From Sediminibacterium magnilacihabitans (GTDB lineage: Bacteria > Bacteroidota > Bacteroidia > Chitinophagales > Chitinophagaceae), in contig PVEQ01000002.1 of the NCBI GenBank assembly GCA_002973575.1, forward strand, positions 124,001-188,000: a stretch of 64,000 nucleotides of DNA, written 5' to 3'. Below, piece after piece: positions 26,245 to 52,113 of the stretch. Made by a program: the position numbers and the translations under genes. The notes beneath the pieces are model-generated. The model saw only the letters and a list, made by a program, of their open reading frames with translations, was not told where the DNA came from and made no database searches. How positions within the stretch are numbered: position 1 is the first letter of the stretch; each line of letters begins with the position of its first letter.

Positions 26245-26317
26245 GATTCCGTAGCTCAGTTGGTAGAGCAATACACTTTTAATGTATGGGTCCTGGGTTC
26301 GAGTCCCAGCGGGATCA
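26245..26317 (+). tRNA. tRNA-Lys (anticodon TTT)
   Basis: All stems were folded by hand. The 7-bp acceptor pairs GATTCCG with CGGGATC (one G-T wobble), D stem GCTC/GAGC, anticodon stem ATACA/TGTAT with loop CTTTTAA (anticodon 26278-26280), and T stem CTGGG/CCCAG with loop TTCGAGT. The discriminator is A and no CCA is encoded. The gene appears intact. It is the left junction of the ICE: the minus-strand recombinase frame runs through 62 of its 73 bases. Confidence 0.97.
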
Positions 26318-27836
26318 CTTCTTGGGACAAGTCTAAAATATTGAGGCTTGTCCCATTTTTTTTGTCCTCTAACTTATTGTCAATTAAGCACATAAGGTTA
26401 ATCGCTTGGTTCACACGATTAGTTCGATATTGAAATCCGTCAAAAGTCAATTTTTCGGGGAACATCGAACTAATAATCTTCCGCTGCTGTGTTATTGTCC
26501 CTTCTGAGTACAAAACATCTAATTGCGAGATATTGCTAATAGCTTTATCCCACAAAGGTTCGATATTGGTTGTGTCGGTTACCGAAGCTGTTAATTGCGC
26601 CTCTAAGCGGTTAATTCTTTCTTCACACTCGGATTTTATTGTACGATAATCATCAGCTTCAATATCCCCCGCCAGTAATAAGTCTCTTGCCTTTGATAGC
26701 CTTTTGTTTGCCTCATCAAGCAGTGTTTTCATTTGCTGAACATCATTCCGCTGTAAACGTGTTTTTGCCTTGAAAACGGATACAATAACCTCTTTATAAA
26801 GCTGTAATTTAGGCAATGGCTTCACATACTTTCTAATCTCATCTACGATGCCAACATTTACTTTGCTTGCGTTGTATCTTACTCCGCAGGAAGAACTACA
26901 ATGATAATAATGGTAATATTTCTTTTTACAGCCCTTAGAGGCACTTCCGGTGAGCATTCTTCCGCATTTAGGGCAAATTAAAAAGCCTCTTAAGGGTAAA
27001 GCATCATCAACAGTTAGTTTAGTACGTTGTGCCTTTTTACGTCCATTTAAAACATCCTGTACTTCATAAAACAGTGCTTCAGAAATCAATGGCTCATGTT
27101 GTCCTTGCACTAAACAGCTTTCTTCATCTTTGAACTTTGGAATAAATATTTTGCCACAATACAAGGGATTGCGGATGGCAACCCAAAAATTATTTTTGCT
27201 ACCTCTGCGTAATCCTTTTTCTTTGGCCAATTTCCAAACCTGTTCTGTATTCAACCTGCCCGATGCTAATTCCTGAAATACCCATTTCAAAATGTTAGCT
27301 TCATCTTCTCTTGGTGCTATGTATTTTTTCCCGTTTTCACTTACCTTGTTTATATAGCCTAAAGGAGCAGTGCCCATGTACCGCCCTTCTTTTTTTGCCC
27401 TCCTCATTCCATGAAATACATTTAAAGCCCTACGGTCATTTTCTACTTCAGGTGCCGCTAAATAAAAAGCAAGCATCATTTTATTTTCAGGAATAGAAAG
27501 GTCTAATGGTTGTTCCACAGCTTGTGGTTCTATCCCTAACTTCCTCAACGTGCTAATCATTTGGTAGGCATCTCCGGCGTTGCGGCTAAAGCGATCCCAT
27601 TTTGTAAATAAAATAAGATCGGATTGCCCTCTGTGCTTACGCAAGTCAACTAATAATTTACACCACTGAGGGCGATTGAAGGTTTTGGCAGAATGATCTT
27701 CAAAGATCACTTTGCGCACCTTTATTGAGTTGATCGCACAATATTTGCGTAAGCGTTCTTCCTGGTCTCTTTGCGAGTATCCTTTATCAGCTTGTTCGTC
27801 GGTACTTACACGGATATATAAGTCGGCTGTCTTCAT
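26256..27836 (-). CDS. large serine recombinase (ICE integrase) with tRNA-derived C-terminus
   Basis: The ATG at 27836 gives 526 aa. The resolvase catalytic domain (~1-150) opens with ADLYIRVSTDEQADKGYS, with the Ser in IRVSTDEQ as nucleophile, and contains LILFTKWDRFSRNAGDAYQ. A recombinase domain follows (~165-270), then a zinc ribbon (LICPKCGRMLTGS ... CSSSCGVRY, ~295-330) and a coiled coil (~360-450). The last ~20 residues (LGLEPRTHTLKVYCSTN region) are the antisense of tRNA-Lys, and the ~14 before them are the antisense of its terminator. It should catalyse integration and excision at this tRNA. The tail suggests the attachment crossover can change the C-terminus. Confidence 0.9.
   Translation of the reverse strand: MKTADLYIRVSTDEQADKGYSQRDQEERLRKYCAINSIKVRKVIFEDHSAKTFNRPQWCKLLVDLRKHRGQSDLILFTKWDRFSRNAGDAYQMISTLRKLGIEPQAVEQPLDLSIPENKMMLAFYLAAPEVENDRRALNVFHGMRRAKKEGRYMGTAPLGYINKVSENGKKYIAPREDEANILKWVFQELASGRLNTEQVWKLAKEKGLRRGSKNNFWVAIRNPLYCGKIFIPKFKDEESCLVQGQHEPLISEALFYEVQDVLNGRKKAQRTKLTVDDALPLRGFLICPKCGRMLTGSASKGCKKKYYHYYHCSSSCGVRYNASKVNVGIVDEIRKYVKPLPKLQLYKEVIVSVFKAKTRLQRNDVQQMKTLLDEANKRLSKARDLLLAGDIEADDYRTIKSECEERINRLEAQLTASVTDTTNIEPLWDKAISNISQLDVLYSEGTITQQRKIISSMFPEKLTFDGFQYRTNRVNQAINLMCLIDNKLEDKKNGTSLNILDLSQEVIPLGLEPRTHTLKVYCSTN
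26323..26363 (+). terminator. intrinsic terminator of tRNA-Lys
   Basis: TGGGACAAG (26323-26331) pairs with CTTGTCCCA (26347-26355), followed by eight T residues. It lies 5 bp after the tRNA and is also read, on the other strand, as codons of the recombinase. Confidence 0.85.
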
Positions 27837-27960
27837 GATTATCTCTTTAATTTTAACCAGCAAAAGCTATAAGTAGGGTTACAGAAATAATTGATAACTA
27901 AAGCTTTTACTGTTAATGCAAGATAACTAAATTTCTTAGCATCGTAAAATCTTTGCGTAT

Positions 27961-28119
27961 CTAACTTGCCTTTTTTAAATGTTGTTCTACAACAATTTCC
28001 GCCATCCCATATAAAAAATCCAAGATGATTTTTGCCTCTTCTAAGGTGACTTCAACACCGTCCCTCTTTAAAATTTCAATTGCCTTTTCAGGGGATATTC
28101 TTTCTGCTTCAGATACCAT
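27961..28119 (-). CDS. small acidic helical protein of ICE
   Basis: The 52-aa frame starting at 28119 is chosen because GGGAGGTG sits 6-7 nt before this ATG, an unusually strong Shine-Dalgarno for Bacteroidota. A longer frame from 28179 would start inside a hairpin and has no such signal. The sequence (ISPEKAIEILKRDGVEVTLEEAKIILDFLYGMA) looks like two helices, a type seen in small mobile-element proteins of unknown role. It lies between the wHTH gene and the recombinase. Confidence 0.6.
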   Translation of the reverse strand: MVSEAERISPEKAIEILKRDGVEVTLEEAKIILDFLYGMAEIVVEQHLKKAS

Positions 28120-28143
28120 TTCACACCTCCCTTTATGACAGCA

Positions 28144-28162
28144 AAAGCCCGTGAAGGGCTTT
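28144..28162 (-). other. hairpin just upstream of the small ORF's ribosome site
   Basis: AAAGCCC and GGGCTTT form a perfect 7-bp stem around a 5-nt loop, 13 bp upstream (minus strand) of the GGGAGGTG ribosome site. It may end the upstream transcript or shape a leader for the small protein; the T-run on the minus strand is only four bases. Confidence 0.5.
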
Positions 28163-28195
28163 GGCACATTATGTTTCAAAATTCATTTTACCATA

Positions 28196-28486
28196 TTAAT
28201 CAGTTGTATTGAAATACACTTTACTTCCTTTGTTTCGCTTGTAAGATGGTTCATAACGGATATACCCGTAACTACTTAAATCCTTAATGCTTTTATGGTA
28301 AGTTGTCTTCGTAGATATTTTAGCAATCTTCATTATTTCATAGCTAAACACATGCACCGGATTTTCAAAGCCATGTTCACTCCAATACTGAAGCAACGCC
28401 GCATAAAGACCTATATGCGTAATGCTGATACGAGGGTCTTTATCAATGGCTGTGAAGAAATCCGATAATGGCTTGATCTGATCCAT
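28196..28486 (-). CDS. small winged-helix DNA-binding protein
   Basis: The 96-aa protein has the pattern of winged-helix proteins common in Bacteroidota ICEs: LYAALLQYWSEHGFENP, then VFSYEIMKIAKISTKTTYHKSIKDL as the helix-turn-helix with recognition helix, and SSYGYIRYEPSYKRNKGSKVYF as the wing. A role in element regulation or excision is inferred. No sensory domain is present. Confidence 0.7.
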   Translation of the reverse strand: MDQIKPLSDFFTAIDKDPRISITHIGLYAALLQYWSEHGFENPVHVFSYEIMKIAKISTKTTYHKSIKDLSSYGYIRYEPSYKRNKGSKVYFNTTD

Positions 28487-28540
28487 TCAACCGCTTACAA
28501 ACGTGTTATCAATCATAGTAAGTTTATATCAGCCTATTCC

Positions 28541-30913
28541 TTAGCTGATAGAATTGCTTTGCTTCTTTCTTCTTTTGTTCGATGCCTTTGGCATCTCATC
28601 GCTATCATCCGCAGCACTTTGCTTCTGGCTTTCGTTTTTAGATGCTTGTTTTGCAGTGTTGTTTTCGCCTTGTCCCTGCTTTTCATTTTGCCCTTGCTTA
28701 CTATGAAGGCGCTGCATATTGCTGTCATATACATTGATGGTTTTGAATTGCGGATTAGCTTCGATAAAATGTTTTTGCTCGGTACCATTTTGCACAAACG
28801 TTACCGATTGCCGGTTGCCCTTTTGCAAGGCCTCCACCAGTCTGGTTTTATCCTGTTCGTTGGTTAGTTCCTTGATAGGATGCTTTTCCAATGCATTTAC
28901 TAAGTCGTATCCATAGTTCTGATGATACTGCTTAAGCTTGTAATTCCCGTTGTTATCCGTTTGTTTAAAATCCATTTGCATCCAGGCATTGTAAACCTGT
29001 CCTTCTTTGTTGGTTAGGTCTTTATTCACCGTCCTTCCATTCATCAAGTTATAGGCTTCTTTAAGTGTGATGCTGCCTTCTTTGTTGATGTAGAACGTTT
29101 GCTCCATCCTGTCCTTCGATTGTTCAGGCGTTAGGGATACCTGATAGCGGTTGAAGAAATACATATCCGTCTGATCTGATTTTTTAAAATGCAAAGAAGC
29201 TTTTACATCATCATTGCCAAACTTTGTGTTATGAGCTAATTGAAATTCTGGAGTTTGCTTCTGCATTTTTTCTTTCAATTCGTTTTCCAGCCCTTCGCCG
29301 AAGCCGGTAAACTTTACCTGATCACACAGGTACTCAAAATTTTTCTGGTTCATAAAATTTGTTTTTGAAGTGAATGAAATTGTTTCGTTTGATGGTGATA
29401 CTTCAGCAGTTGTTTTCAACATATCATAAACCGCTGTTTTATCAACCATCTTATTAGCTGGTATAGCGCAGGTGAACTGATACTGTTGCTTTAAATAGTC
29501 CAAGGAGAATTGATTAGGCTCATAAGGTCCATCAAGCCAATATTTGAACATTAGTTTCTCCGCTATTTCTTTCCCGTCTGGAGTAGTATGTAGTTTAGTA
29601 ATATTGCGAATGATGTTGTCAATTAGTTTTAACTCTTCCTTTCCTTTTTTCGATTGCATTCGTACTTCTACTAAAGCTTCTGTGTGATGGTCAATTGACC
29701 AATCGAATTGGCGCATGGCATTATCCAGCTTTGTAGCATCAATCCCCTGGATAGAAATATTAGGCACATCAGGAAGTATGCGTAAAGTGGCTTCGCAACC
29801 AGCAAGCTTGTAGTTACCAGGTCTTCCATTTTGTTCAAAATGTAACCAGTACTCAATCGCCTCCTTTTCGTTTCTTTCCTTTATAGGCAATTGAAATTGC
29901 GCTTGCGGATACATCTCATAAAATGAGATTGCTGTATTCAACCTATTACCAAAACCTAACTCTTCCAATCGTGTATATAGGGCGCTATTGTCTATAGATA
30001 CTAAGGATTGATTTATTTTATTATTATTGATAATACTTTCTTCTTGCAGTGTCTGTTTAAGTGAATTAGCTAAAGCCTTTATTTCTATAACCTTGTAATT
30101 GTCAAACTCGCTTATATTGCCTTCTGCAAAATCATATGCTTCATCTTTGCCGTTGAAGAAATACACATCGTGCTTCTCTAAAAAATATGGAACAGTATTG
30201 TAAGCTATCCATTGATTACCTTGGAAAAGTTCTAAATCTATTTGATGTAAGACTTCATCTGATATGATGTGACCAGCAAGAGCATCAATTTGAATGTTTG
30301 GTTTTAAATGATCGATTTCAGTCTTTATAAACTCATAAGCTTCCATTGCAGTTAAAGCCTTATCGTCATCTACAGGAAATACATGTTTGTGTTCATGAAG
30401 CTTTTGCATTTCCTTATAGTCCTGAAAATACTTTTCATACTCACTTTCAGGAAGATGTTTGTACATTAAAAGTTTTGCAACATCTTTTCCTTCTTCTACT
30501 CTAACCAGAGTATATAAATCACTGTTCGTAGCATTTATGAAGTCAGTAGCTTGTCGATATTCTTGCCTTGACATCGTATTTTCAATGTCCTCACCGTAGA
30601 ACTTGTCATACCAACCACTTACTTCCTTCAGCTTTGTATCTAATTCCTTAGTATTTATACCTTGAATGTTTAGATTGGGAATATTTACATGCTTACACGT
30701 TAATTCATATTCCTTAAGCTGATAGGCGTTGTTTGAACTTTTGATAAAATGTAAGTCATACATTAAGGCATCTTCGTTGATTTGATTACTGTAATAGACA
30801 TGAAACGGCTCCTTATTCGCCTTCATGTAATACTCTACTTCTTCCGCAACCCTCAAGGGAAAACCAAGTGCTTGTAATTGACCTTTGAGGTATTCAAGAT
30901 TTTTCTCGTCCAT
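28541..30913 (-). CDS. three-module DUF3945-like ICE protein
   Basis: The 790-aa protein has no signal peptide or membrane segment. It is built of three related units, each opening with a YLKGQLQALGF or YLCDQVKFTGF type helix and followed by a FHFIKS/LHFKKS strand: ~1-200, ~300-510 and ~525-700. The last unit has TFYINKEGSITLKEAYNLMNGR and NAWMQMDFKQTDNNGNYKLKQ, as in DUF3945/DUF4099-type proteins frequent on Bacteroidota elements. The C-terminal ~80 residues are Gln/Lys/Ser-rich and basic (NKRRKKQSNS), possibly nucleic-acid binding. Function is unknown. Confidence 0.7.
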   Translation of the reverse strand: MDEKNLEYLKGQLQALGFPLRVAEEVEYYMKANKEPFHVYYSNQINEDALMYDLHFIKSSNNAYQLKEYELTCKHVNIPNLNIQGINTKELDTKLKEVSGWYDKFYGEDIENTMSRQEYRQATDFINATNSDLYTLVRVEEGKDVAKLLMYKHLPESEYEKYFQDYKEMQKLHEHKHVFPVDDDKALTAMEAYEFIKTEIDHLKPNIQIDALAGHIISDEVLHQIDLELFQGNQWIAYNTVPYFLEKHDVYFFNGKDEAYDFAEGNISEFDNYKVIEIKALANSLKQTLQEESIINNNKINQSLVSIDNSALYTRLEELGFGNRLNTAISFYEMYPQAQFQLPIKERNEKEAIEYWLHFEQNGRPGNYKLAGCEATLRILPDVPNISIQGIDATKLDNAMRQFDWSIDHHTEALVEVRMQSKKGKEELKLIDNIIRNITKLHTTPDGKEIAEKLMFKYWLDGPYEPNQFSLDYLKQQYQFTCAIPANKMVDKTAVYDMLKTTAEVSPSNETISFTSKTNFMNQKNFEYLCDQVKFTGFGEGLENELKEKMQKQTPEFQLAHNTKFGNDDVKASLHFKKSDQTDMYFFNRYQVSLTPEQSKDRMEQTFYINKEGSITLKEAYNLMNGRTVNKDLTNKEGQVYNAWMQMDFKQTDNNGNYKLKQYHQNYGYDLVNALEKHPIKELTNEQDKTRLVEALQKGNRQSVTFVQNGTEQKHFIEANPQFKTINVYDSNMQRLHSKQGQNEKQGQGENNTAKQASKNESQKQSAADDSDEMPKASNKRRKKQSNSIS

Positions 30914-30943
30914 ATCTGAAGCTTTTAATAACGTATAACTTTC

Positions 30944-31531
30944 TTAGTCCGGTAATTTTATAGAGCTGCTAACTTCATTGCCAAACACATCCCATCCTTC
31001 AAATTCTTCATTAGGAAACAAGCTCTCACAACTTCTGGCAAATAGTTCTACCCGTGGCACGTCACCGAAGAGGTTGACAATTCGCTCTCTGATTTCTCTG
31101 GGTTTCTTGGAGTGTTTATCTCTTTTGGATATAAGAACTTGTTCAACATTCCGGCAAATCCTTTTCAATGGTTTCCCTTTGGTAAAAAGAAGAACAACTT
31201 CTGCATTCGCCCTTGTGTAGTATCCCATTCCTTTGAAAAGCTTTTCGTTGTTTTTATTCTGTTTTATCCAGGTGAAGGCGACGGTTTTATAAACAAACCC
31301 CCACGCTTCTGCTAATTCTAAAGCACCTTTTAAACAAGGAAAAGTTGCCCACATAAGAAGCACACAGTCATTCTCGCAAATAGCTGGAATATTGAATGCT
31401 GTTAAGCTTTGGAGGGACTGTGTTGAGTAGTGGTTTTCCGCACTTCTGCTCATACCTCTGTTGCTCCAGACCTTGAATTGCCAGGGCGGATCTGCATAAA
31501 TAATGTTGTACTTCTTGCCCACACTTTCCAT
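30944..31531 (-). CDS. MT-A70 family adenine-N6 methyltransferase
   Basis: The 195-aa protein has the catalytic DPPW motif in NIIYADPPWQFKVW at the N-terminus, CVLLMWATFPCL and AFTWIKQNKNNEKLFKGMGYYTRANAEVVLLFTKG in the core, and SRKPREIRERI-like KHSKKPREIRERIVNL near 140. It should methylate adenine N6 in DNA. It has no cognate restriction gene and lies 30 bp upstream of the three-module protein, so a role in modifying element DNA is inferred. Confidence 0.88.
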   Translation of the reverse strand: MESVGKKYNIIYADPPWQFKVWSNRGMSRSAENHYSTQSLQSLTAFNIPAICENDCVLLMWATFPCLKGALELAEAWGFVYKTVAFTWIKQNKNNEKLFKGMGYYTRANAEVVLLFTKGKPLKRICRNVEQVLISKRDKHSKKPREIRERIVNLFGDVPRVELFARSCESLFPNEEFEGWDVFGNEVSSSIKLPD

Positions 31532-31566
31532 GCTACACTAACATTTAATATTTGCAATAAGGAAGG

Positions 31567-32412
31567 CTACTGGAGTAACTTTGCCCGGATGATAGTTTTA
31601 TTATGCACATGAATTTTTAAGTGCCTGCCACCAGATTTTTCCATGAGTTCGATGGCTAAATATTTCTTATCTGGTATGGTGAACTTGGGGAGCGCATACA
31701 CAAACACTTTTTCCGATTGTCCAACTATAACTGATGTATCACCTGTTACATAGAGCGGGTTTATTTCAAGTTCCTGTGTAGCGGTGCGTTTTGCTTTTTT
31801 CTGATCCCGGATATAAAAGCGGAGTTGGTCAATATCATAGTTGATATTGGTATAATTCTGCAGGGTAAGACGACAAAATAGGACATCACCTTTGATGTAC
31901 AACCCACTTAATTTCAGCCTCATGCCATAGCTCTTATCCTTAATACTATGAATGGTTTCTTTTGCTATAGCTACAGTATCTGCATCAGCTTTTACCTGTG
32001 CTTCATTGATAGTGATGTTTGAAAAGAAAGCCACCGGATAAAGGGTTGCTGAATTGTCAAACCGAATATTCAGCACACTTGGCGTATCGGTATAATTGAG
32101 AATATAGGAATATAGCCTACCATCAGCCGTAATAACGGTGAGGTTGGTTTGGTCAAATCCAAGCCTGCCTGCTTTTACCTGTAAGATATTCTCGACACCT
32201 TTGGCTTTCTGCACTAAAATATCTTTGCTTCCTCTATCCACACTTTTTATGGCGTAGGGGAAAACAAGGTTTGTAGTTTTATAAAAGGTAATAGGAAGTA
32301 CATACGGTTTAATCACCGTTACTTTGGGTTCAGCGTTGTTTTGAGCAAATAGTTGAATGCTTAATAAAAGGAGGAGAATTCCGGTTGCCACGCTTGCACT
32401 TGTCTTTTTCAT
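31567..32412 (-). CDS. traN: conjugative transposon protein TraN (VirB9-like)
   Basis: The 281-aa protein carries a signal peptide (LLLLLSIQLFAQN) and beta-rich sequence: PYVLPITFYKTTNLVFPYAIKSVDRGSKDILVQKA is the characteristic TraN opening, followed by VITADGRLYSYILNY and LSGLYIKGDVLFCRLTLQNYTNINYDID. In Bacteroidota mating channels TraN is the outer-membrane core component, interacting with TraM. It sits directly after traM as expected. Confidence 0.9.
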   Translation of the reverse strand: MKKTSASVATGILLLLLSIQLFAQNNAEPKVTVIKPYVLPITFYKTTNLVFPYAIKSVDRGSKDILVQKAKGVENILQVKAGRLGFDQTNLTVITADGRLYSYILNYTDTPSVLNIRFDNSATLYPVAFFSNITINEAQVKADADTVAIAKETIHSIKDKSYGMRLKLSGLYIKGDVLFCRLTLQNYTNINYDIDQLRFYIRDQKKAKRTATQELEINPLYVTGDTSVIVGQSEKVFVYALPKFTIPDKKYLAIELMEKSGGRHLKIHVHNKTIIRAKLLQ

Positions 32413-32469
32413 ACACTTGGGAATTTTGTAAAATGAATAAATTGTTTACTGGAATTGATGGATAGATTA

Positions 32470-33795
32470 TCAGTTCTCCTGTTTTTGCTTTTCGTCACGT
32501 AGTAGTACCTGATAACCTGCTTTCACGGTTACTTTGACCAGCTTGACCTTTCGACTAAGCAACGTTTTAGCAGCTTCGATGCCGGCACCCGCAGCTTGAG
32601 CGCCTATTGAGGAATTTAAAGTGGTAAAATCAAGTGCCTGTGCGGAACGGTCTAAAGATTGTTTCGCTACATCACGGGTAATTGCTCCGGGAATATAGAT
32701 ACCATCCATGCCATCCATATCACATACCGTCAGGTTCACAGGGAAAAGGCAATTGCGATAACGAATGCTGTTGATTTTGATGCTTAATCTTTCTCCATTC
32801 AGATCTGCTATGCCAAATACGAAATTGTCTTTTGGTATCAATACGCCATTGATAAAAATATCATTCGTCAACCGCAACTTCACTGTAGAGCCATTTACCA
32901 AGGTCTGTGTTTCATGAATAACTGCTTGTATGGAGTTTTGACCTTCGTTTAAAGAGGCTTCATCATCCAAGGAGTAAAAACCGTTAGATTGAAGGGCATA
33001 ATTTGTGTTGGTACTTTTCCGGTTTTTTGTTCCTCTATTATCCAGCAGCGAGATAGAATTATTCTCATTATTTACAGCCACTGCAAATACCTGTCCCTTC
33101 TTGGTTTCTGATGTTTGCTTTATCTTTTCACGCACACGGTCGGGATGTTGTATATCCAATATCTTTTCCAACATGCCGTTCAATTGCTGCATCTCCGGGT
33201 CTTCGCCCTCCTTTTGGTTCATGCCTTGCATCATTTGTTCCAATCGGTCAATATCACCGCTATTAACCGAAGTGTTAATGTGCATCGTTTTTACGGTGCT
33301 TATGTTCTCCTCGGCGTTTGTTCGAGATGAAGAAGCATTATTTAATGCAGCATCCAGTTGAGCGAGTTTTTGATACACCTTTGTTTCATTGGGGTCCGTA
33401 TAAGTGCTGTTATGATTTATGATTGAACTTTTTCTTGCAACCATATTGTTATCGAACTTGCGGCTCGTAAGAGAGGTATCTGCGGGTGGAACAACAGAGG
33501 TATCTATATGATGCCTGTAGTACGGATCATTTTCCATGAGTTGTTGCAACTTCATGGAGTCCGAAGCTGCCTTTTCATAATAGCTTAATTTATCAAGCGG
33601 TTTATCATCTTTCAGATTGGCACCGGGCAGTTGCATGTTCAACCCATTTTGTGCTTGTTGCGCATCGGCATGGTTTACGCTGCCACCTCCTAATGCCCAA
33701 AACATCAAAGTCATGAAAGGCAGCACCAATAAGGGCAGCACCAGTAAAAATTTGCGCTGCCGCAGAAACTTTTGTGAATGTGTTTTCTGTTCCAT
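32470..33795 (-). CDS. traM: conjugative transposon protein TraM (VirB10-like)
   Basis: The 441-aa protein has a short cytoplasmic N-terminus (HSQKFLRQRKF), one membrane segment (LLVLPLLVLPFMTLMFWALGGG), a disordered periplasmic linker (~50-230) and a C-terminal domain (~260-435) with VNGSTVKLRLTNDIFINGVLIPKDNFVFG and CDMDGMDGIYIPGAI, typical of TraM. It spans the envelope and links the inner-membrane complex to TraN. Confidence 0.92.
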   Translation of the reverse strand: MEQKTHSQKFLRQRKFLLVLPLLVLPFMTLMFWALGGGSVNHADAQQAQNGLNMQLPGANLKDDKPLDKLSYYEKAASDSMKLQQLMENDPYYRHHIDTSVVPPADTSLTSRKFDNNMVARKSSIINHNSTYTDPNETKVYQKLAQLDAALNNASSSRTNAEENISTVKTMHINTSVNSGDIDRLEQMMQGMNQKEGEDPEMQQLNGMLEKILDIQHPDRVREKIKQTSETKKGQVFAVAVNNENNSISLLDNRGTKNRKSTNTNYALQSNGFYSLDDEASLNEGQNSIQAVIHETQTLVNGSTVKLRLTNDIFINGVLIPKDNFVFGIADLNGERLSIKINSIRYRNCLFPVNLTVCDMDGMDGIYIPGAITRDVAKQSLDRSAQALDFTTLNSSIGAQAAGAGIEAAKTLLSRKVKLVKVTVKAGYQVLLRDEKQKQEN

Positions 33796-33803
33796 AAACT
33801 GTT

Positions 33804-34301
33804 TTACTTTTTATTTTGTGATTGGTAAATCGTTTCAAGAAGAAGAATGCTATCCATTAAACCGGGTCGGTTAGTAAGGATACTGTCATGTACTTTTTTG
33901 GCGGAAGGACTTCTGGCCAGGCTATCCATATAAAACCGGAAACGTTGAATTTTTTCGTATTCCGCTTTCGATACGATTACGAAAGCTTTTGTGTTTTCAT
34001 CACCCGATTTATTGGCATATGGAGGCTTTGTAAGGGGAGCAACGGTAAATGAAGAAGCTTTTCGGCTCAGCAAACTGTTTGCGATGAAATATATGCTTAT
34101 GCTTCCTGCTGTCAGACAGAACAAAGAAAGTAGGATAAGTTTACCATTGCGGGAGAGGCGCTCTGTATGGCGCTGCATGAAGTTTGCCCACCTTTGCTGC
34201 AGGCGAATGCAGGCAGAAACAATACTGCTCGCAACTCTTTCCTGTGCAACATTTCGTTTACCTGAACCTTTGGTTTTCCTTTTTCTGAATAGTGATAACA
34301 T
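33804..34301 (-). CDS. TraL-position single-pass membrane protein
   Basis: The 165-aa protein has a very basic N-terminus (FRKRKTKGSGKRN), a helical region, one transmembrane segment (LILLSLFCLTAGSISIYFIANSL, ~75-97) and a soluble C-terminal part. It lies between traK and traM exactly where TraL (DUF3989) occurs, but it is longer than usual TraL and motif resemblance is weak. It overlaps neither neighbour (3-bp and 8-bp gaps). Confidence 0.6.
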   Translation of the reverse strand: MLSLFRKRKTKGSGKRNVAQERVASSIVSACIRLQQRWANFMQRHTERLSRNGKLILLSLFCLTAGSISIYFIANSLLSRKASSFTVAPLTKPPYANKSGDENTKAFVIVSKAEYEKIQRFRFYMDSLARSPSAKKVHDSILTNRPGLMDSILLLETIYQSQNKK

Positions 34302-34304
34302 GAT

Positions 34305-34922
34305 TTAGCGATTTTCAATTTTTAAATCCCTGTTTTCTATAGTAGTCCAACGTTCGATAAGGAAGCCATGCGGGTTATTATCCGAACGGCTCACGTTTCG
34401 CATGTAACCTTCCGTAATTAAGCTTCGTGATACAGTGCTTGTAGTCCTTATGATGTTTTGTGTAGCATAGCACCGGAAATAATACGGGTACTCGTTTGTG
34501 TTTACCATTACGCTATCTACTTTGATTTGCTGGCTGATATTACCGGCAATGATGTTGGCGTAGTATCCATTCTCTTTTAGATTATCATATTCCCGTTTGG
34601 CAGAAGCATCGGCGAGATAAAGCGCTTTGGTAATGTTTGCCTGTATTACTTTTTCATCAGGGTCAAGTGTAAAAAAGTATTGATGAAACATCCTGACATG
34701 ATCCCTGGCTTCAACAGGAATATTTTCTTTCCTATCCGACGCATAGGCTTCCAAAGCTTTCCCGTTAGCGAGAATGTATATCTTGTTTTGCATTTCAGCA
34801 ACCAGCCTGAAACTCTTGTACAGTGTAAAACCACAAAGGGAAACAGAACCGATTACGACAATGACGGCAAAACTGCGTATGCTGCGAAAGGCTGTATCTA
34901 TGTTTTTCATTTGTTGAAACAT
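34305..34922 (-). CDS. traK: conjugative transposon protein TraK (VirB8-like)
   Basis: The first ATG at 34922 gives 205 aa. The N-terminal MKNIDTAFRSIRSFAVIV segment leads into one membrane helix (~17-40), then a periplasmic VirB8-like domain with LANGKALEAYASDRKENIPVEARDHVRMFHQYFFTLDPDE. This is the standard TraK opening. The C-terminus ends with an odd near-repeat IENRDLKIENR. TraK is an inner-membrane scaffold of the mating channel. Confidence 0.92.
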   Translation of the reverse strand: MFQQMKNIDTAFRSIRSFAVIVVIGSVSLCGFTLYKSFRLVAEMQNKIYILANGKALEAYASDRKENIPVEARDHVRMFHQYFFTLDPDEKVIQANITKALYLADASAKREYDNLKENGYYANIIAGNISQQIKVDSVMVNTNEYPYYFRCYATQNIIRTTSTVSRSLITEGYMRNVSRSDNNPHGFLIERWTTIENRDLKIENR

Positions 34923-34972
34923 GACCAATTAGATTGTTGTTTTCAAAAAGTTGTATTTTGTGTTACAGGTTT

Positions 34973-36193
34973 TCAGGTTGAAGATTTACCTGAAATTTTA
35001 TCCTGCATGTAACTGGAATTGCCGGTAGAGCCGCTTTCATTGAAATAACCCGAATTCATTCCGTAGCTGCTCATACTGCTGCTTATCCTACCAGCAGCAT
35101 TGCCCATTGCATCCGCTACCATACCGGCACTGCCTGACATCGTATTTACCGCTGTCCTGGATGTAGTGCTGAACAGACTTGTTACTTTTTGTACCATTGC
35201 TCCGCCACCACCTGCATTCACGATATAGTTGGCAACAGAAGGAACAGTGAAATACCCCACGATACCAATAATGAGGAAAATGAGATATGCGGCGTCGGTT
35301 GAACTGAAGAAAGTATCGCCATTCCATTGTATCTGGCTAAGGTCAACTTTCAGCATTTTCTCTTGTATCTTGCCGATGATAGCACCAAATATGTTGGCGA
35401 CGGGCAACCACAAGAAAATGTTTATGTAGCGGGCTAACCATACAGTTAGTGTATGCTGAAATCCGTCAAAGACAGCAATACCAAACACCAAAGGGCCCAA
35501 TATGGCCAGTACGATGAGCTGAAACGTTCGTAAGGTATTGATGCAAAGTGCAGCCGCTTCAAATAGTACCCGTAACACTTCGCTCATCCATTCTTTAATG
35601 GAATTACGAAAATTGTAAGAGGCTTTGGACATGGCAAACTTGATGTCATTGCCAATGCCTTCAAAGATGCCCTCATTTGCACCCGTAGGGTCATCGGGAT
35701 GCGTGTACTTATACCATTTATCCCTATCGCCGCTGCCTGTCTCACCCACATACATTTGCCAGGCTTTGGTTGTTTTAATGGCTTCTTCCTTTTGCTTTAA
35801 GAGTTCTGCAATAGCTTTATCCGAGTCCGTTACCATACTTGCTGTAGCAGTAACCGTTGGCTTCATGACGCCGTTAATCATTCCTAAAACAGAGGGGAAA
35901 ATCATTACTGCAAATCCAATCACGAAGGGCCGGAACAAGGGATAGAAATCAATCGGCTCTGCATTGGCAATATGCCGCCATACTCTTGAAGCGATGTACC
36001 AGGTTGCTGCAAACCCTGCAATGCCTTGCCCTACGCCTATGAGCTTACTGCATAACGGCAACATCTCATCGTATAGCTGATCCAAAACGCTCTGAAGTCC
36101 GTGTATCTCGTCCGCAACACCCTGCGCATGCGAAAATTGAGGCAATACCATTCCCACTGCTGCTATTAAAGCAGCTCTTATCCACTTTGTCAT
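34973..36193 (-). CDS. traJ: conjugative transposon protein TraJ (VirB6-like)
   Basis: The 406-aa polytopic membrane protein has a signal-like start (AVGMVLPQFSHAQGV), an early DEIHGLQSVLDQLYDEMLPLCSKL segment typical of TraJ, and several hydrophobic helices (~45-130, ~210-330) including LIVLAILGPLVFGIAVFDGFQHTLTVWLARYINIFLWLPVANIFG. The C-terminal ~80 residues are Ser/Gly/Met-rich. VirB6-like proteins form part of the DNA path across the inner membrane. Confidence 0.92.
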   Translation of the reverse strand: MTKWIRAALIAAVGMVLPQFSHAQGVADEIHGLQSVLDQLYDEMLPLCSKLIGVGQGIAGFAATWYIASRVWRHIANAEPIDFYPLFRPFVIGFAVMIFPSVLGMINGVMKPTVTATASMVTDSDKAIAELLKQKEEAIKTTKAWQMYVGETGSGDRDKWYKYTHPDDPTGANEGIFEGIGNDIKFAMSKASYNFRNSIKEWMSEVLRVLFEAAALCINTLRTFQLIVLAILGPLVFGIAVFDGFQHTLTVWLARYINIFLWLPVANIFGAIIGKIQEKMLKVDLSQIQWNGDTFFSSTDAAYLIFLIIGIVGYFTVPSVANYIVNAGGGGAMVQKVTSLFSTTSRTAVNTMSGSAGMVADAMGNAAGRISSSMSSYGMNSGYFNESGSTGNSSYMQDKISGKSST

Positions 36194-36203
36194 ATGTAAA
36201 AGT

Positions 36204-36836
36204 TTACTTGTTTATACCATAGATTTTCTGCATAGTGGCTGCATCGTTCTTTTCCCTGGCTCTTTGCAATGCCAGTATCGTTGTATTGTTATTAAAATGC
36301 CGCAGAAACAGCAGCTTGTCCTGCATTTTGCTAAAAACCTGGTCTATTGCCTCCAACCGTTCATCATCTGACATCCGTAGCTTACTATCGGTTATAATCA
36401 TCATTAGTTCATCAAGGTCGTTCATACTTTGTTTAAACAAATTGCCATATACTTTGCCCAAGTACTCAATCTCTCCGGGATTGAAGTTGCCATCCTGTTT
36501 AAAGCGATTAAAAGCAGTTTTGTACTCTTTTACAATTAGTAGTTGATTATTGATAATATCGGCTATCCGTTTGTACTTTCTTACAGTGGGACTTACCATC
36601 ATTAGCCCATCTAAAAAAGTTTTATGCAGATTGAAATTCCCCTGCGACAAATCTTTTATGGTAGAATAACCAACACTGACTATTTGATAGCCTTTCTTAA
36701 GATCACTAAGGATTTGCTTGAATTGTGCCAGCTTCTCGACATTTAGTAACAACTGTTGCACTTCTTCGCTTTGTGCAGATAGCTTAAGTGTTAGGCATGT
36801 GCTTAATAAAATAAAAATGAGAATTATCTTTTTCAT
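36204..36836 (-). CDS. DUF4141/TraI-like secreted protein, copy 3
   Basis: The 210-aa protein has a signal peptide (ILLSTCLTLKLSAQ) and is all helical. The conserved block is YQIVSVGYSTIKDLSQGNFNLHKTFLDGL, then KRIADIINNQLLIVKEYKTAFNRFKQDGNFNPGEIEYLGKVYGNLF, and an end motif KIYGINK. It is a clear paralogue of the two upstream genes. By position and helical architecture it belongs to the VirB5-like TraI group, thought to be minor pilus components. It lies 10 bp before traJ. Confidence 0.8.
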   Translation of the reverse strand: MKKIILIFILLSTCLTLKLSAQSEEVQQLLLNVEKLAQFKQILSDLKKGYQIVSVGYSTIKDLSQGNFNLHKTFLDGLMMVSPTVRKYKRIADIINNQLLIVKEYKTAFNRFKQDGNFNPGEIEYLGKVYGNLFKQSMNDLDELMMIITDSKLRMSDDERLEAIDQVFSKMQDKLLFLRHFNNNTTILALQRAREKNDAATMQKIYGINK

Positions 36837-36840
36837 ACCA

Positions 36841-37485
36841 TTAGTTTTTTATACCATTGAGAATACGCATTGTTTGAATGTCGCTTTGCTCCCTGATGCG
36901 TAAAGCTGCAAGCAGCTTTGCTTCATTGGAAAAGGCTTGTACAAATGTGTATTTATCTTGCATGTCGCTATAAAGTGCATCTATTCGTTTCAATCGTTCA
37001 TCGTCTTTCATCTCCAATTCGCCGCTTGTCGTAACTGCTATTAGTGCATCTATCGTTTTGGTACAGTCATCCAGCAACCGTTCAAAAACACCGTTTACAT
37101 AGCTGATTTCATCTGCATTAAATGCCCCGCTTTGTCTTACCTGTTTTACTGCTTCTTTGTAAGTTTTTACAATGTTTACCTGCAATGCAATAATGTCCGC
37201 AACCTTGCTATAATTTTTGATTTTAGGATTAACGGCTTTTAGCGAGTTGAAATAATCTTTGTGAAGGTTGAATTCGCCGTTCTTAATATCACTAATCGCA
37301 TTTAATCCTTCTTTGGCTATAGAATAGCCCTTTTGCACATAGCCGATGTACACCTGTAAGGCGGCTATCTGTTGTAACAGATACTTCTTCTGAGTTGCTT
37401 TTTGCCGGAACCATTCGGCAAATGTTTGTGCCTTTGTGCCCGAAGAAAGGATGGCGAACAATAGTAAAATGAGTAGCCTTTTCAT
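36841..37485 (-). CDS. DUF4141/TraI-like secreted protein, copy 2
   Basis: The 214-aa protein has a signal peptide (LLLFAILSSGTKAQ) and shares with copy 3 the block YSIAKEGLNAISDIKNGEFNLHKDYFNSL, KVADIIALQVNIVKTYKEAVKQVRQSGAFNADEISYV and an end ILNGIKN. The gap to copy 3 is 4 bp. Copies 2 and 3 are closer to each other than to copy 1, suggesting a more recent duplication of this pair. Confidence 0.8.
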   Translation of the reverse strand: MKRLLILLLFAILSSGTKAQTFAEWFRQKATQKKYLLQQIAALQVYIGYVQKGYSIAKEGLNAISDIKNGEFNLHKDYFNSLKAVNPKIKNYSKVADIIALQVNIVKTYKEAVKQVRQSGAFNADEISYVNGVFERLLDDCTKTIDALIAVTTSGELEMKDDERLKRIDALYSDMQDKYTFVQAFSNEAKLLAALRIREQSDIQTMRILNGIKN

Positions 37486-37504
37486 ACAACTTATTTTATA
37501 ACTA

Positions 37505-38182
37505 TTATTGAATGCCGTAAAGTTTCTTTACTACGTCCACGTCGTTTTGCGATTTTGCTCTTTGAAGACTAATGACAATACCTTGCTGATTAAATGTTTT
37601 CAAATCGTTGTAATTAACCTCTATCCGGTCAGCGGCTGCATTGATGATTTCAAGACGTTTTGCATCGCTCATTTGCGTTTGAAAAGAGTTGATGACTACG
37701 AATATTTGGTCAAGGTTCTTCACACTTTCATCAAGAATACCGGAATAAACCCTACTCATGTAGGAAAGCTCTTCGGCTGAAAAATGGTTATCCTGCTTAA
37801 ACAATCCCCAGGCTCTTTTGTATTCCTCCACTAAGTGCACCTGCTTTTCCGTGATTTCTTTAATTCGTTTGTAATAGGAGATAATCGCTTTTACCTTTTG
37901 CAGTTCTTCATAATAATCCTTGTACAATTGCTTCTGCCTCTCAACCCAATTGGTAATTTCATCCAGCTTTAGCTTTGACATGGTATTTTCCAGTGTCTTC
38001 TGTGCATTCTGCAGCCAAATAGTTTTATTCTGCAACCGTTGAATTTTCAAGTCAACAGCTTTAATAACTTTTACAACGGCTGCTTTAATAATTTCCGCAA
38101 TCGGAATTTGGGCCTGTGATCGGTACGTGGGTGCCATGGTTGCTATTCCCAGTAATACCAATACGAACAATAGCTTTTTCAT
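37505..38182 (-). CDS. traI: TraI (DUF4141, VirB5-like), copy 1
   Basis: The 225-aa protein is the most TraI-like of the three: signal peptide (LFVLVLLGIATMAPTYRSQAQ), IAEIIKAAVVKVIKAVDLKIQRLQNKTIWLQNAQKTLEN, then ELQKVKAIISYYKRIKEITEKQVHLVEEYKRAWGLFKQDNHFSAEELSYMSRVYSGI and the end motif KLYGIQ. It follows traG directly. TraI proteins are exported components of the mating channel with a proposed pilus or contact role. Confidence 0.85.
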   Translation of the reverse strand: MKKLLFVLVLLGIATMAPTYRSQAQIPIAEIIKAAVVKVIKAVDLKIQRLQNKTIWLQNAQKTLENTMSKLKLDEITNWVERQKQLYKDYYEELQKVKAIISYYKRIKEITEKQVHLVEEYKRAWGLFKQDNHFSAEELSYMSRVYSGILDESVKNLDQIFVVINSFQTQMSDAKRLEIINAAADRIEVNYNDLKTFNQQGIVISLQRAKSQNDVDVVKKLYGIQ

Positions 38183-38206
38183 TATTACAAATTTTAAATG
38201 TTAGTA

Positions 38207-40672
38207 TTACTTGCTTGTTTTCATATCTCTTGTCAATGCGGCAATTCCTTTTTGAATACTGCCATACTTTTTGGCATATTGCATTACTTTTACTTTTTCC
38301 GTTTCTTCGGTTGTATATGCGAGGTATTCTTCAGGTGATACTTCTGTACGATACACCTTTGAAAGCATACCGCCGAGTGAAACAAAAACCTCTTTATACT
38401 TTTTGGTAGGGTCGTTCGCTTTATTCACTGAAAGAACCAAAGCTTTTTCTTTTTCAGTCAACCCTAATAGCTCCTGTATTTGCTCAAACTTGTTTTGGTA
38501 CTTACTTTGGTCTAATAAGATTTTGCAGTCGCTGTTATTGATAATGGCCTGCTTGACTACGGGTGAGCTAATAATGTCTTCCACTTCCTGCGTTACAACA
38601 ACAGCTTCTCCAAAGAATTTCCGTACCGTTTTGAATAAATACTTGATGTATTCTGCCATCCCTTCCTTTGCTATTGCTTTCCACGCTTCCTCAATGAGTA
38701 TCATTTTTCGAACGCCTTTCAGCTTTCGCATTTTGGAAATAAAAACCTCCATAATGATGATGGTAACAACCGGAAACAGGATAGGATGGTCTTTGATATT
38801 GTCTAATTCAAAAACGATAAAGCGTTCAGTGAGTAGCTCTAAATTTTCGGTGGCATTTAGCAGGTAATCAAACTCACCATCTTTGTAGTAGGGTCTCAAT
38901 ACATACAGGAAATTATTGACATCAAAATCTTTCTCTTTCACGTTATCAGTTGCCAGTTTCTGTACGAACTCATCTCTTAAAAAATCATAGAAACTGTTGA
39001 AACAGGGAAAGATGCTCGTGTTCTTTTCTAACTTTTCGTAGTAAAGCTGCAGGGCATTGGACAGGGCTACATATTCCGAGCGGTTAAATGTTTCATTGTC
39101 CTTTTTCCACAGTGCCAGAAGCAACGTCTTAATGCTTTCCTTTTTCTCTGTATCCAGGCTATCGCCTTCACTGATATAGAAAGGGTTAAAGCGGATAGGG
39201 TTCTTTTCATCATAGGTGAAGTAGTATCCGTTCACCATGTCGCATAATCCTTTGTAACTATGCCCAACGTCCACCAAGACAATATGGGTTCCTTGCTCAT
39301 AATAGCTTCTAACCATGTGGTTGGTAAAAAAAGATTTACCACTACCGGAGGGACCCAATATGAATTTATTCCGGTTCGTGCATAACCCTCTTTTCACCGG
39401 CTCATCGCTGATGTCCACATGCACCGGCTTACCTGTTAATCTATCTCCCAAGCGGATGCCTATGGGACTTAAAGAGGAACGGTAGTTTGTTTCAAGGTTC
39501 AGAAAGCAGGTAGCTTGTTCAGCGAACGTATCGAAGGTGTCGTTCATGGGAAAATCAGCTTCGTTGCCGGGAATGCCTGCCCACCATATTTGCGGAGCAC
39601 CTGCTGTCTCTTGTTTAGCAGCGGCGTCCATCTGTGCCAAAGCAGAGGAAACAAGGTTCTTTAAATCCTTTAATTCCTCTTTTTTATCCGTCCATACCTG
39701 CACATTAAAATGCGCTTTCACAGGAAGTCTTTGCTGGCTGATGGCTTCATTTAGGAAATCATTGGTTGCATCCCTGGCGATTGAATTTTCCCTTGAATAA
39801 GCAGATAGCGATTGCAACCGTAACCGTTTACTTTCCAGCTTTTGCAGGGTTTTCTGTGCATCTTCGATAAAAATATACTGGTTGTAAATATGGTTGCACG
39901 ATAGCAGTTGTCCTAATGTTGAAGCAAAACCCACACTGAATTTTGTCTTGTCTGTGGAGTACCGGTCAAAGTTTATCCGTGAACCACACAACGCTGGCAA
40001 ATCCTCAGCATCACCCAACGTGTAAAGCTGAGAATATTGATCACCGACCTGTAACCCGTTCTCTAATTTTATGTCCTTGAACACGATGCTGTTCTCCTTT
40101 TCGCATAGGTAGCAGTACCGCTCAATCAACCCCATTTTACGGCTATGGCTTTGTAGTTCGTCACTTTTAAGCCGGCTAAGCTGCACAAAGCCGCTGTCTT
40201 CCAAAATGCGTTTAAACTGCCCGGCACTGTCAAGGAAGTCCTGTAATAATTGAGGTTTAAGCGTTTGTTCTGGGACGATGGATTTACGAAGCAGGTTCGA
40301 GAAAAGAGAACTGGACAATTTTCTGCCAGTAGGCTTTTTCGTGAGCATGATGTAACAGCTATGATCTAAAAAGGGACGTTCCGTAAAAAACCGTTCGCTG
40401 CTTTGTGTTAAAAAACTAACATCATCTTTGGTGAAGTCGGGTTTATACTTGCTATCTATAAACCAGTCCTGTTTGTGAAATACAGACAACTTCGGCAACA
40501 CCTTGATGGCTTTCACCCATGCCTGATGAAAAGCTTCGTATTCTTGGTCAGATAAGGTGAATATCTCCGGTAACTCTGCACGGAACACAATGGTTATATC
40601 ACCCTGTTTGGAAAGGATACAATCATGTTCCACACCAAGAATTGGTAAAATTTCATGCAACTGCTTTTCCAT
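38207..40672 (-). CDS. traG: conjugation ATPase TraG (VirB4-like)
   Basis: The first ATG at 40672 gives 821 aa. The N-terminal domain opens with LHEILPILGVEHDCILSKQGDIT, typical of TraG. The ATPase domain has Walker A ILGPSGSGKSFFTNHM (~445), a Walker B region RKMILIEEAWKAIAKEGM (~665) and AVVVTQEVEDIISSPVVKQAIINNSDCKILLDQ (~700). It energises assembly of the mating channel at the inner membrane. It is the largest of the core tra genes and its order relative to traF and traI is standard. Confidence 0.95.
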   Translation of the reverse strand: MEKQLHEILPILGVEHDCILSKQGDITIVFRAELPEIFTLSDQEYEAFHQAWVKAIKVLPKLSVFHKQDWFIDSKYKPDFTKDDVSFLTQSSERFFTERPFLDHSCYIMLTKKPTGRKLSSSLFSNLLRKSIVPEQTLKPQLLQDFLDSAGQFKRILEDSGFVQLSRLKSDELQSHSRKMGLIERYCYLCEKENSIVFKDIKLENGLQVGDQYSQLYTLGDAEDLPALCGSRINFDRYSTDKTKFSVGFASTLGQLLSCNHIYNQYIFIEDAQKTLQKLESKRLRLQSLSAYSRENSIARDATNDFLNEAISQQRLPVKAHFNVQVWTDKKEELKDLKNLVSSALAQMDAAAKQETAGAPQIWWAGIPGNEADFPMNDTFDTFAEQATCFLNLETNYRSSLSPIGIRLGDRLTGKPVHVDISDEPVKRGLCTNRNKFILGPSGSGKSFFTNHMVRSYYEQGTHIVLVDVGHSYKGLCDMVNGYYFTYDEKNPIRFNPFYISEGDSLDTEKKESIKTLLLALWKKDNETFNRSEYVALSNALQLYYEKLEKNTSIFPCFNSFYDFLRDEFVQKLATDNVKEKDFDVNNFLYVLRPYYKDGEFDYLLNATENLELLTERFIVFELDNIKDHPILFPVVTIIIMEVFISKMRKLKGVRKMILIEEAWKAIAKEGMAEYIKYLFKTVRKFFGEAVVVTQEVEDIISSPVVKQAIINNSDCKILLDQSKYQNKFEQIQELLGLTEKEKALVLSVNKANDPTKKYKEVFVSLGGMLSKVYRTEVSPEEYLAYTTEETEKVKVMQYAKKYGSIQKGIAALTRDMKTSK

Positions 40673-40712
40673 ACTCACTGATTTACCTTTTAATAATTTC
40701 CTCTTTGTTGCT

Positions 40713-41030
40713 TTATTTTCTATGCAGGAAAGCGGACCTGCTTTTAGATTTAATTACTTTGGGAATACTTCGCTTTGCCAGCTTTTTCATCATTCCGTAT
40801 TCGCCGTAGGTGTTGCTTAATGCATAGATTTTTATGGTTAGTATAGTTCCGAGGATTAGTATAATGCCAATGCACACAAACGAGTTTATACCAATAATGT
40901 ACAGAATGGCGAACAAGATGAGTAAGGCAATTACACCCCCACCGAAATACCAGATATACTGTGCCTTTAAACCTTTGAATTCAATGCTTTTGTTAATGCC
41001 TTTATTGATTGAATAAACACTGTTGCTCAT
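40713..41030 (-). CDS. traF: conjugative transposon protein TraF (DUF4133)
   Basis: The 105-aa protein shows the DUF4133 pattern: SVYSINKGINKSIEFKGLKAQYIWYFGGG, two membrane helices (IALLILFAILYIIGI and CIGIILILGTILTIKIY), then YGEYGMMKKLAKRSIPKVI. It is the VirB3-like inner-membrane component, placed upstream of traG. Confidence 0.92.
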   Translation of the reverse strand: MSNSVYSINKGINKSIEFKGLKAQYIWYFGGGVIALLILFAILYIIGINSFVCIGIILILGTILTIKIYALSNTYGEYGMMKKLAKRSIPKVIKSKSRSAFLHRK

Positions 41031-41042
41031 AGCTTCTTTATT

Positions 41043-46628: not shown

Positions 46629-46644
46629 ACTTCACTTTTCACTC

Positions 46645-47082
46645 TCACTGCTTGTTTTCAATATATTCTTTTACGGCACCGATAATGGCATAGCGCAGAT
46701 ACCGGTTGTTTTCATTTTCAAGGGTAAAACCAAAGGTTTCAAATACTGGTATGCAGCTTTCGATAAGGTTTATCACCTCATAGGTGAGCAATCCACCTTC
46801 TTTAAGCTTGTAATAGACTTGTTCAAATTCTTCTTCTATAATTGAAATCAGGTAATTGAACTTTGATGGGCGTAGCTCTTTTGTGAGTGCATCCATGCAT
46901 CGTTCTTCTATGATGTATGCAGGAGTACCAACGGCAAGTAATTCATTCACCAACAGATCAACTCCGGCAATCTTTTCCTTCAAATAGCCACTTACATTAC
47001 CATCCTGTTGAAGCGTAATTAGTAAATCAAGATTGTTGTCGGCGATATACTGGTGCAGCTTTGCAATTAATACTTCCTGCAT
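46645..47082 (-). CDS. DUF1896-like protein
   Basis: The first ATG at 47082 gives 145 aa; a longer frame needs a TTG overlapping the traE end. The helical sequence LIAKLHQYIADNNLDLLITL, VGTPAYIIEERCMDALTKEL and RPSKFNYLISIIEEEFEQVYYKL follows the DUF1896 pattern, a family commonly found beside large methylase/helicase genes in Bacteroidota elements. It is 16 bp upstream of the giant gene and may work with it. Confidence 0.6.
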   Translation of the reverse strand: MQEVLIAKLHQYIADNNLDLLITLQQDGNVSGYLKEKIAGVDLLVNELLAVGTPAYIIEERCMDALTKELRPSKFNYLISIIEEEFEQVYYKLKEGGLLTYEVINLIESCIPVFETFGFTLENENNRYLRYAIIGAVKEYIENKQ

Positions 47083-47107
47083 AAAAACATAGAAATTTGT
47101 TAGGCTC

Positions 47108-47446: not shown

Positions 47447-47497
47447 AATACACACTATTTAAAAGTTGAACGTTTACACTATATAAACTTCCCGAAG

Positions 47498-47523: not shown

Positions 47524-47540
47524 GAGGAAGCTGGCCACCA

Positions 47541-52108: not shown

Positions 52109-52113
52109 CCGAT

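Follow-up and report, generated by a model that had tools for sequence, protein, structure and literature searches.

The locus raises the question of what a large serine recombinase (LSR) gene encodes when its 3' end runs out of the mobile element that carries it and into a host tRNA gene, and whether the enzyme read from the integrated copy is the same as that of the free element. The window, that is, the whole stretch of 64,000 nucleotides from Sediminibacterium magnilacihabitans that was analysed, holds the following features at this junction.

26245..26318, plus strand: tRNA-Lys (TTT), the integration target, predicted by ARAGORN; it contributes its 3' half to attL as the host half-site, as judged from left-flank identity with the relative G216.
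26256..27836, minus strand: LSR, integrated form, 526 aa from the ATG at 27836 (Pfam Resolvase, Recombinase and Zn_ribbon_recom).
26256..26315, minus strand: host-written tail, 19 codons IPLGLEPRTHTLKVYCSTN and a stop, antisense to tRNA-Lys.
26297..26302, plus strand: T-loop GTTCGA in the host half-site, the proposed zinc-ribbon recognition motif, 16 nt from the first Val-codon base.
26315..26318, no strand: crossover core TCAC (GTGA on the recombinase strand), common to attL and attR.
26319..26343, no strand: putative P' arm, the half-site contributed by the element at its left end, with a near-fixed layout beside the core in relatives; its length of 25 bp follows the A118 case (PMC3783163).
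26323..26355, plus strand: terminator-like hairpin 3' of tRNA-Lys, supplied by the element and coding for ..GTSLNILDLS.. (individual folds compared with shuffles).

The recombinase frame is open on the minus strand from the ATG at 27836 to a stop at 26256–26258 inside tRNA-Lys, traversing the hairpin and reading 63 of the 74 tRNA bases (stop counted) in antisense; the stop corresponds to tRNA nucleotides 12–14, in the D arm. The first-pass annotation had described a frame free of stops through the terminator and most of the tRNA and ending in the D arm, and this description held. A 535-aa form with a TTG start is a mechanical ORF, and the 526 aa are counted from the ATG. The openness of the tail was rejected as informative by itself: 101 of the 112 distinct tRNA genes in the loci had a recognisable T-loop, and the antisense strand of all 101 stays open for at least eight codons in the frame used by the LSRs (median 21 sense codons). 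It is the fixed register in which the recombinase enters the antisense tRNA, not the open frame, that exceeds chance. A terminator-consensus scan of the recombinase strand returned one match, at 27166–27184 inside the gene, with 1.9 expected from shuffles, a result that points neither way. The first-pass annotation had also proposed that the convergent tRNA and recombinase transcripts might repress each other, a possibility for which this analysis gave no support.

The enzyme carries the Resolvase N-terminal, Recombinase and zinc ribbon domains (PF00239, PF07508 and PF13408, all above cut-off), and its family profile matches structures of the A118 integrase C-terminal domain (4kis and 6dnw), a combination that identifies it as an LSR. 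Residues R9, S11, R82 and R85 are invariant across 17 aligned sequences, and by analogy Ser11 would be the nucleophile. The AlphaFold model (mean pLDDT 72.9, pTM 0.34) shows two long helices, 341–389 and 394–418, possible candidates for the coiled coil that LSRs have in the C-terminal domain; confidence drops under 50 at residue 476 and beyond for the integrated form and at residue 487 and beyond for an attP-like relative (L037), and the models gave no confident fold for the tail of either.

The point at which host DNA ends can be judged from relatives. A query of the left flank and tRNA matched 59 of the 61 genomes of the genus, many via the tRNA only, and 19 of the relatives' loci were inspected. 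Four end at or within tRNA-Lys; in the other 15, the DNA after the tRNA-Lys 3' end is unlike that of the window, mostly unlike each other, and carries other terminator-like sequences. The left flank of the closest relative, G216, is 97% identical to the window up to 26318, after which identity is lost, and LSR relatives at other tRNAs retain the hairpin and codons of the ...DLSxxV type. Judged by these alignments, the left boundary of the element is the tRNA-Lys 3' end, at 26318, which makes the host-written residues 19 in number and the terminator element DNA. A host-derived terminator was rejected because relatives' tRNA-Lys genes have other terminators and a like hairpin is present at other tRNAs. 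The first-pass annotation had put the host-written residues at about 34, an extent that must be reduced to 19 since host identity in relatives stops at 26318, and had assigned the terminator to the host, which fails because the hairpin belongs to the element. What stands of its proposal is that the C-terminus is partly host-written, at the sequence level for 19 residues, and that excision should replace the host tail, as is predicted from both ends.

Of 37 non-redundant relatives, each compared with 100 mononucleotide shuffles, 36 form a stable hairpin followed by T's downstream of the tRNA (L015, L043, L044 and L047, with the wrong anchor, were left out of this set). A consensus fold at fixed register (RNAalifold) gave zero common pairs across relatives, apparently because the stems shift by one base between sequences, and each sequence was hence folded singly; the hairpin at 26323–26355 is absent from the output of a simple terminator-consensus scan. 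About 45 bases of the left end hold recombinase codons, the hairpin that follows the tRNA and the element half of attP together, and in the proposed mechanism this one stretch would serve as coding sequence, as attP half-site and as replacement tRNA terminator. In 41 non-redundant left ends from diverged members of the main family, no stop precedes the core in 779 codons, while the other frames have 34 and 69 stops in 738 codons; the comparison is weak, given that the set was selected by open frame and contains four wrongly anchored rows. Broken LSR copies occur at L011, L048, L063 and L191. At three tRNA-Lys loci of genus relatives (L119, L124 and L125), the sequence GGTGTCAAAAxTxGGTGTC recurs after the hairpin, 3' of tRNA-Lys, as if another integrase family also used the 3' end of this tRNA.

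The recombinase lies at the left end of a long element, of which the window holds the following parts.

26319..64000, no strand, and on to about G000:C2:248,420 (window position about 124,420): integrative and conjugative element (ICE).
32470..33795, minus strand: conjugative transposon TraM (PF12508).
34973..36193, minus strand: CTnDOT-type TraJ (PF07863).
38207..40678, minus strand: TraG-type conjugation ATPase (PF19044).

The element runs about 60 kb past the window, and with conjugation genes of the TraG, TraJ and TraM families and an integrase in one element it is, by its genes, a Bacteroidota ICE. Between 53147 and 61517 the window encodes a P-type ATPase and a multicopper oxidase with a heavy-metal binding domain, a cargo that suggests copper or other metal resistance.

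A right end inside the window was rejected, as there is no exact repeat of at least 15 bp between 26200–26500 and the rest of the window. Searched with the left-end query, the window's own genome (G000) gave a second stretch, 79% similar, 98 kb rightwards, and the right end lies at G000:C2:248397-248423, on the same contig as the window. There the core TCAC has GTTCGAGTTTTGTACCAATGGGT before it and, directly after it, the left end of another LSR copy that has decayed, so that the right-end site holds a tandem remnant. This decayed copy (L011, G000:C2:248449-248823; about 1449-1823 in L007) has its own hairpin and is what is left of an earlier family member inserted at this tRNA-Lys, a case of tandem accretion. 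Comparison of L007 with G216 (L183 and L184) gave no host match past the G000 right end, where the flank holds L011. Elsewhere in the same genome, tRNA-Leu(CAG) is occupied by another member of this LSR family, 60% identical and with another antisense tail (L009, G000:C1:74709-76241). In at least eight genomes the element bears another LSR gene, about 3 kb inward of the first and about 65% identical to the window LSR; these inner genes have an unrelated C-terminus of their own (e.g., SVHLNRKHAVTALRNRM) and their own stop.

G029:C8:121343-122788, G619:C5:184569-186014 and others: examples of inner second LSRs (L200-L204; L016-L018).

The right end encodes, in the recombinase frame, a native tail that differs from the host tail, NPLVQNSNSLMEDLRLLCDLLAA (G000:C2:248349-248423, Val codon and stop counted). 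It is likely that attP lies within the LSR gene, that integration swaps the C-terminus of the enzyme and that excision restores the native tail. In this mechanism attP would lie 23 codons before the native stop; integration would cut the gene at Val507, the codon of which (26316–26318) is inside the crossover core, and append the tRNA-antisense tail, and excision would return the native one. The excised junction is predicted to read GTGAACCCATTGG, continuous with the recombinase gene, and the gene of the circular form to end ...DLSQEV-NPLVQNSNSLMEDLRLLCDLLAA, at 530 aa. Joining the ends by script gave this 530-aa protein, ending DLSQEV-NPLVQNSNSLMEDLRLLCDLLAA, vs the integrated 526 aa ending DLSQEV-IPLGLEPRTHTLKVYCSTN; as predicted from both ends, the integrase thus differs in form between the integrated and the free state, 526 vs 530 aa. 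The two ends, the two tails, the conservation of the native tail and the 5-bp shift described below are read from sequence, and formation of the circular junction itself is something that we infer. No free circle was found among 98 plasmid and 417 phage records, in which no match reached 60% identity and the best among the matches listed had 20–32%.

The same right end occurs in other genomes. The pattern GTTCGANNNNNGTACCANTGGGTTCAC, with two mismatches allowed, was found in 24 of 294 genomes of the bacterial family, and the reversed pattern in none; one of these (G058) was judged a chance match, leaving 23. An exact, looser pattern matched 15 of the 396 genomes of the order, and its reversed form matched none. 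Leu- and Pro-type right ends, searched with patterns that end within codon 9, were found in 2 and 5 of the 294 genomes, with one reversed-control match in all. Right end and LSR, the latter counted when at least 50% identical over most of its length, share a contig in 11 genomes. Eight of these pairs (G000, G029, G589, G619, G284, G625, G188 and G042) are in the expected order and orientation, spanning 18–107 kb. In G065 the two form the joined attP-like junction, and in G216 and G229 they are unpaired, lying 1.3 and 1.7 Mb apart; G629, in which only an LSR fragment lies beside the right end, was left out of the pairing. Across the 29 genomes that remain when G000 and G058 are taken from the 31 with right ends, an LSR match at E ≤ 1e-20 is present in 20 and absent from nine, showing that orphan right ends exist. 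Contiguous attP-like genes are present at L037 (the same contig as L181), L035, L045 and L099.

The LSR family uses many tRNA genes. At 82 of the 116 unique LSR loci the recombinase frame continues into an antisense tRNA, whose T-arm is translated as GFEP or GLEP; these tRNAs belong to at least eight isotypes (Lys, Leu, Pro, Arg, Val, Gln, Glu and Asn), and five further loci have T-loop variants with the same frame in their tails. Four stop before a tRNA and three are in other frames. At the remaining 22 loci the 700 nt scanned contain no tRNA, these being contig ends, attP-like joints, second LSR copies, tRNA remnants or other joints, and distant LSRs. LSRs identical at 479–484 of 486 residues occupy tRNA-Arg TCT, ACG and TCG and differ in their tails, so that the choice of target is loose. 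This agrees with the expectation in the first-pass annotation that relatives at other tRNAs would bear other tails, since with near-identical LSRs at three tRNA-Arg genes the tail follows the tRNA; the comparison of recombinase termini at different tRNAs, which it had proposed as a check, gave no shared tail at unrelated sites, and the left boundary maps to the tRNA 3' end rather than well outside the tRNA.

The distance of the T-loop motif from the core offers evidence on the crossover itself. Among 96 loci with at least 50% identity and a locatable core, the motif stands 16 nt from the first Val-codon base in 87 and 21 nt from it in five, all joined to no tRNA, and is absent in four; because L037 and L181 are one contig, the five rows at 21 nt represent four distinct junctions. 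Right ends found by pattern were excluded as independent evidence for the 5-bp shift, since the pattern fixes the spacing of the T-loop. In serine integrases, the zinc-ribbon motif lies 5 bp farther from the crossover in attP than in attB (PMC3783163). The spacings of 16 vs 21 nt show this 5-bp shift and fit the attB/attP rule, which supports a crossover centred on GTG/A, the proposed centre lying between the G and A of the GTGA core; bases 3–4 of the core are GA in 54 of 92 loci with the T-loop motif. By analogy, the zinc ribbon of the LSR probably reads the near-universal T-loop GTTCGA, which would explain the use of many tRNAs by relatives. Two distant LSRs, 27–29% identical (L196, G102:C4:15351, and L197, G030:C38:42371), enter antisense tRNAs, Glu and Met, in another frame, and tRNA overlap may therefore have arisen repeatedly in serine recombinases.

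In the recombinase frame, the right ends encode V-NP(L/V/M)VQNSNxxxxDL(K/R)LLxxL and variants of it. Since the att half-site should span codons 2–9 (25 bp) and the search patterns fix SN at codons 8–9, constraint was tested beyond these positions. The Lys-type ends (21 non-redundant) gave a pN/pS of 0.64 and 2 stops in 168 codons at codons 10–17, and the remaining two frames gave 1.18 with 24 stops and 1.37 with 9 stops; in 1000 column permutations, one had as low a pN/pS, 32 had stops as low and none had both. With Leu- and Pro-type ends included (27 non-redundant right ends in all), codons 10–18 gave a pN/pS of 0.64 and 4 stops in 243 codons, the other frames of the same strand had 40 and 13 stops, and of 1000 column permutations 0 had as low a pN/pS, 0 as high a BLOSUM score and 22 stops as low. 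One opposite-strand frame is also low (pN/pS 0.67, 2 stops), wobble positions being shared, with BLOSUM 0.38 vs 1.17. The motif SNxxxx[DE][LF] is present in 18 of the 27 tails and absent in nine, and in Leu- and Pro-type tails (e.g., VPLSGQISNQFIEDLKRLAVLFSQ and VGMAGQISNHFWTDLRNGVSLI) xFxx[DE]L follows in five of seven, two of the five being near-identical. The codon tests leave out L153 (G058), judged a chance two-mismatch match; L143 and L148, left out of a preliminary codon test, are part of both tests given here. By these sequence measures, constraint at the protein level acts on the native tail past the stretch that the att half-site covers. Some tails past the V are short, with 9 residues in L143, 14 in L148, 11 in L045, 12 in L227 and 5 in L224 (a viral contig), so that a long tail is not indispensable everywhere.

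One diverged LSR subfamily is arranged differently at this end.

L209 5020-5520; L210 2150-2650; L211 2480-2980; L212 4600-5230: diverged LSR subfamily.

The LSRs of these four loci, 41–46% identical, have their own stop about 280–330 nt before the core, and the right-end tail is therefore not joined to their LSR. The gap between LSR stop and core holds extra GGTTCGA-type motifs (e.g., GGTTCGAGTCCC), and a short frame lies over the core in three of the four loci. This frame, MKNFILSLFV, crosses the core into the tRNA in L209 and L212 and enters the conserved tail in L211.

What the exchange of tails does to the enzyme can be read in two ways that we judge about equally likely. Loss of the native tail may leave the integrated enzyme less, or differently, able to recombine and so stabilise the integrated element, a suggestion made tentatively; selection on the native tail beyond the att site favours such a functional difference between the two forms. 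Alternatively, and with a similar degree of reserve, attP may merely overlap the 3' end of the gene, any tail of about 20 residues being tolerated with no regulatory effect. AlphaFold confidence below 50 over both tails (from 476 or 487) and the shortness of some native tails are consistent with this passive exchange, as is the natural openness of antisense tRNA (101/101, at least eight codons), by which a host tail needs no adaptation, but the protein-level constraint on the native tail extends past the att half-site and argues against it. It is also conceivable, although doubt somewhat outweighs confidence, that a Bacteroidota-wide LSR family combines T-loop recognition, attP in its own gene and tail loss, which would together act as a one-way switch built into the gene. 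An integrated element could then no longer make the form of the enzyme that had carried out its integration, and only the circle or tandem arrays would bring the native form back.

Other explanations concern the peptide itself. A reading of the right-end peptide as a small ORF of its own and not the recombinase C-terminus, or of its DNA as a site bound by protein, either of them in frame by chance, would suit the diverged loci, where a 41–46% identical LSR stops about 280–330 nt before the core and MKNFILSLFV runs over the core into the tRNA (L209, L212) or the conserved tail (L211); it is nevertheless unlikely, as the LSR frame of the main family enters the tail at a fixed distance from the core, contiguous joined genes occur and the in-frame constraint on right-end codons counts against a pure DNA site. 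Degradation tags affect integrase lifetime in some mycobacteriophages, and the native tail of the window element, which ends ...LLCDLLAA, might be such a tag, with integration altering the lifetime of the enzyme. An LAA end is shared with L150 and some other tails end in small residues, but an AA end is present in only 2 of 33 listed tails, the others ending LCEL, LSEL, SIK or in longer stretches, and this role is very improbable. Antisense ORFs of tRNA genes are common spurious ORFs, and translation might end upstream, or the antisense tail might never be made, leaving the two enzyme forms identical; the frame stays open up to the core in diverged members (0 stops in 779 codons vs 34 and 69 in 738, in a weak set), and an annotation artefact of this kind is the least probable of the readings.

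How serine integrases avoid undoing integration is a central question, to which the known answer is directionality factors. With attP inside the recombinase gene and its C-terminus exchanged on integration, as we prefer to read the locus, gene layout itself may contribute to serine-integrase directionality. If T-loop recognition is true, many tRNA genes would be potential landing sites, possibly useful for genome insertion. Gene calls on integrated copies have a C-terminus that is host tRNA antisense and may misrepresent the native enzyme.

The analysis adds a large serine-recombinase group in tRNA genes. A 2011 survey calls serine recombinases in tRNA genes rare (excerpt of PMC3218068), and the Islander paper (2014/2015) describes serine integrases as not known to target tRNA genes (PMC4383910); among the papers listed in the literature searches, no account of this tRNA-targeting LSR family was found. 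The window LSR resembles A118/LI-type integrases in its three domains, its match to the A118 C-terminal domain structures and the 5-bp motif shift (as given in part of PMC3783163), but differs from them in its tRNA targets and in the overlap between attP and the 3' end of its gene. Serine recombinases are described at tRNA-Leu in mycobacterial AICEs (passage in PMC3218068) and at the tRNA-Ser 3' end in phage phiRSM1, where, unlike here, attP lies between ORF14 and ORF15 and the enzyme is termed resolvase-like (passage in PMC3816273). What the window LSR has in common with AICEs and phiRSM1 is a serine recombinase that inserts into a tRNA gene.

The integrase gene of the archaeal virus SSV splits into two large parts, whereas here the exchange would be limited to the last 23 codons. 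Integrases of the SSV type extend across attP (according to a section of PMC4383910), and the likeness is that of an integrase gene that spans attP and would be altered on integration. In the domain search, only serine recombinase domains were found in the window enzyme. Mx8 Int is a tyrosine integrase, and the window enzyme, as a serine recombinase, would therefore work like Mx8 without being a member of the Mx8 Int family. In phage Mx8 of Myxococcus (Tojo 1996; Magrini 1999), attP lies within int and integration leaves a recombinant int whose 3' end is new, and the Int made from it is reported to be still active with changed specificity (as summarised in part of PMC6070905). The window element is like Mx8 in that attP would lie within the integrase coding sequence and the form of the integrase would be altered by integration, as predicted here from sequence; it is unlike Mx8 in that the enzyme is the LSR of an ICE, the tail comes from tRNA antisense, and the arrangement is family-wide and spread over many tRNAs.
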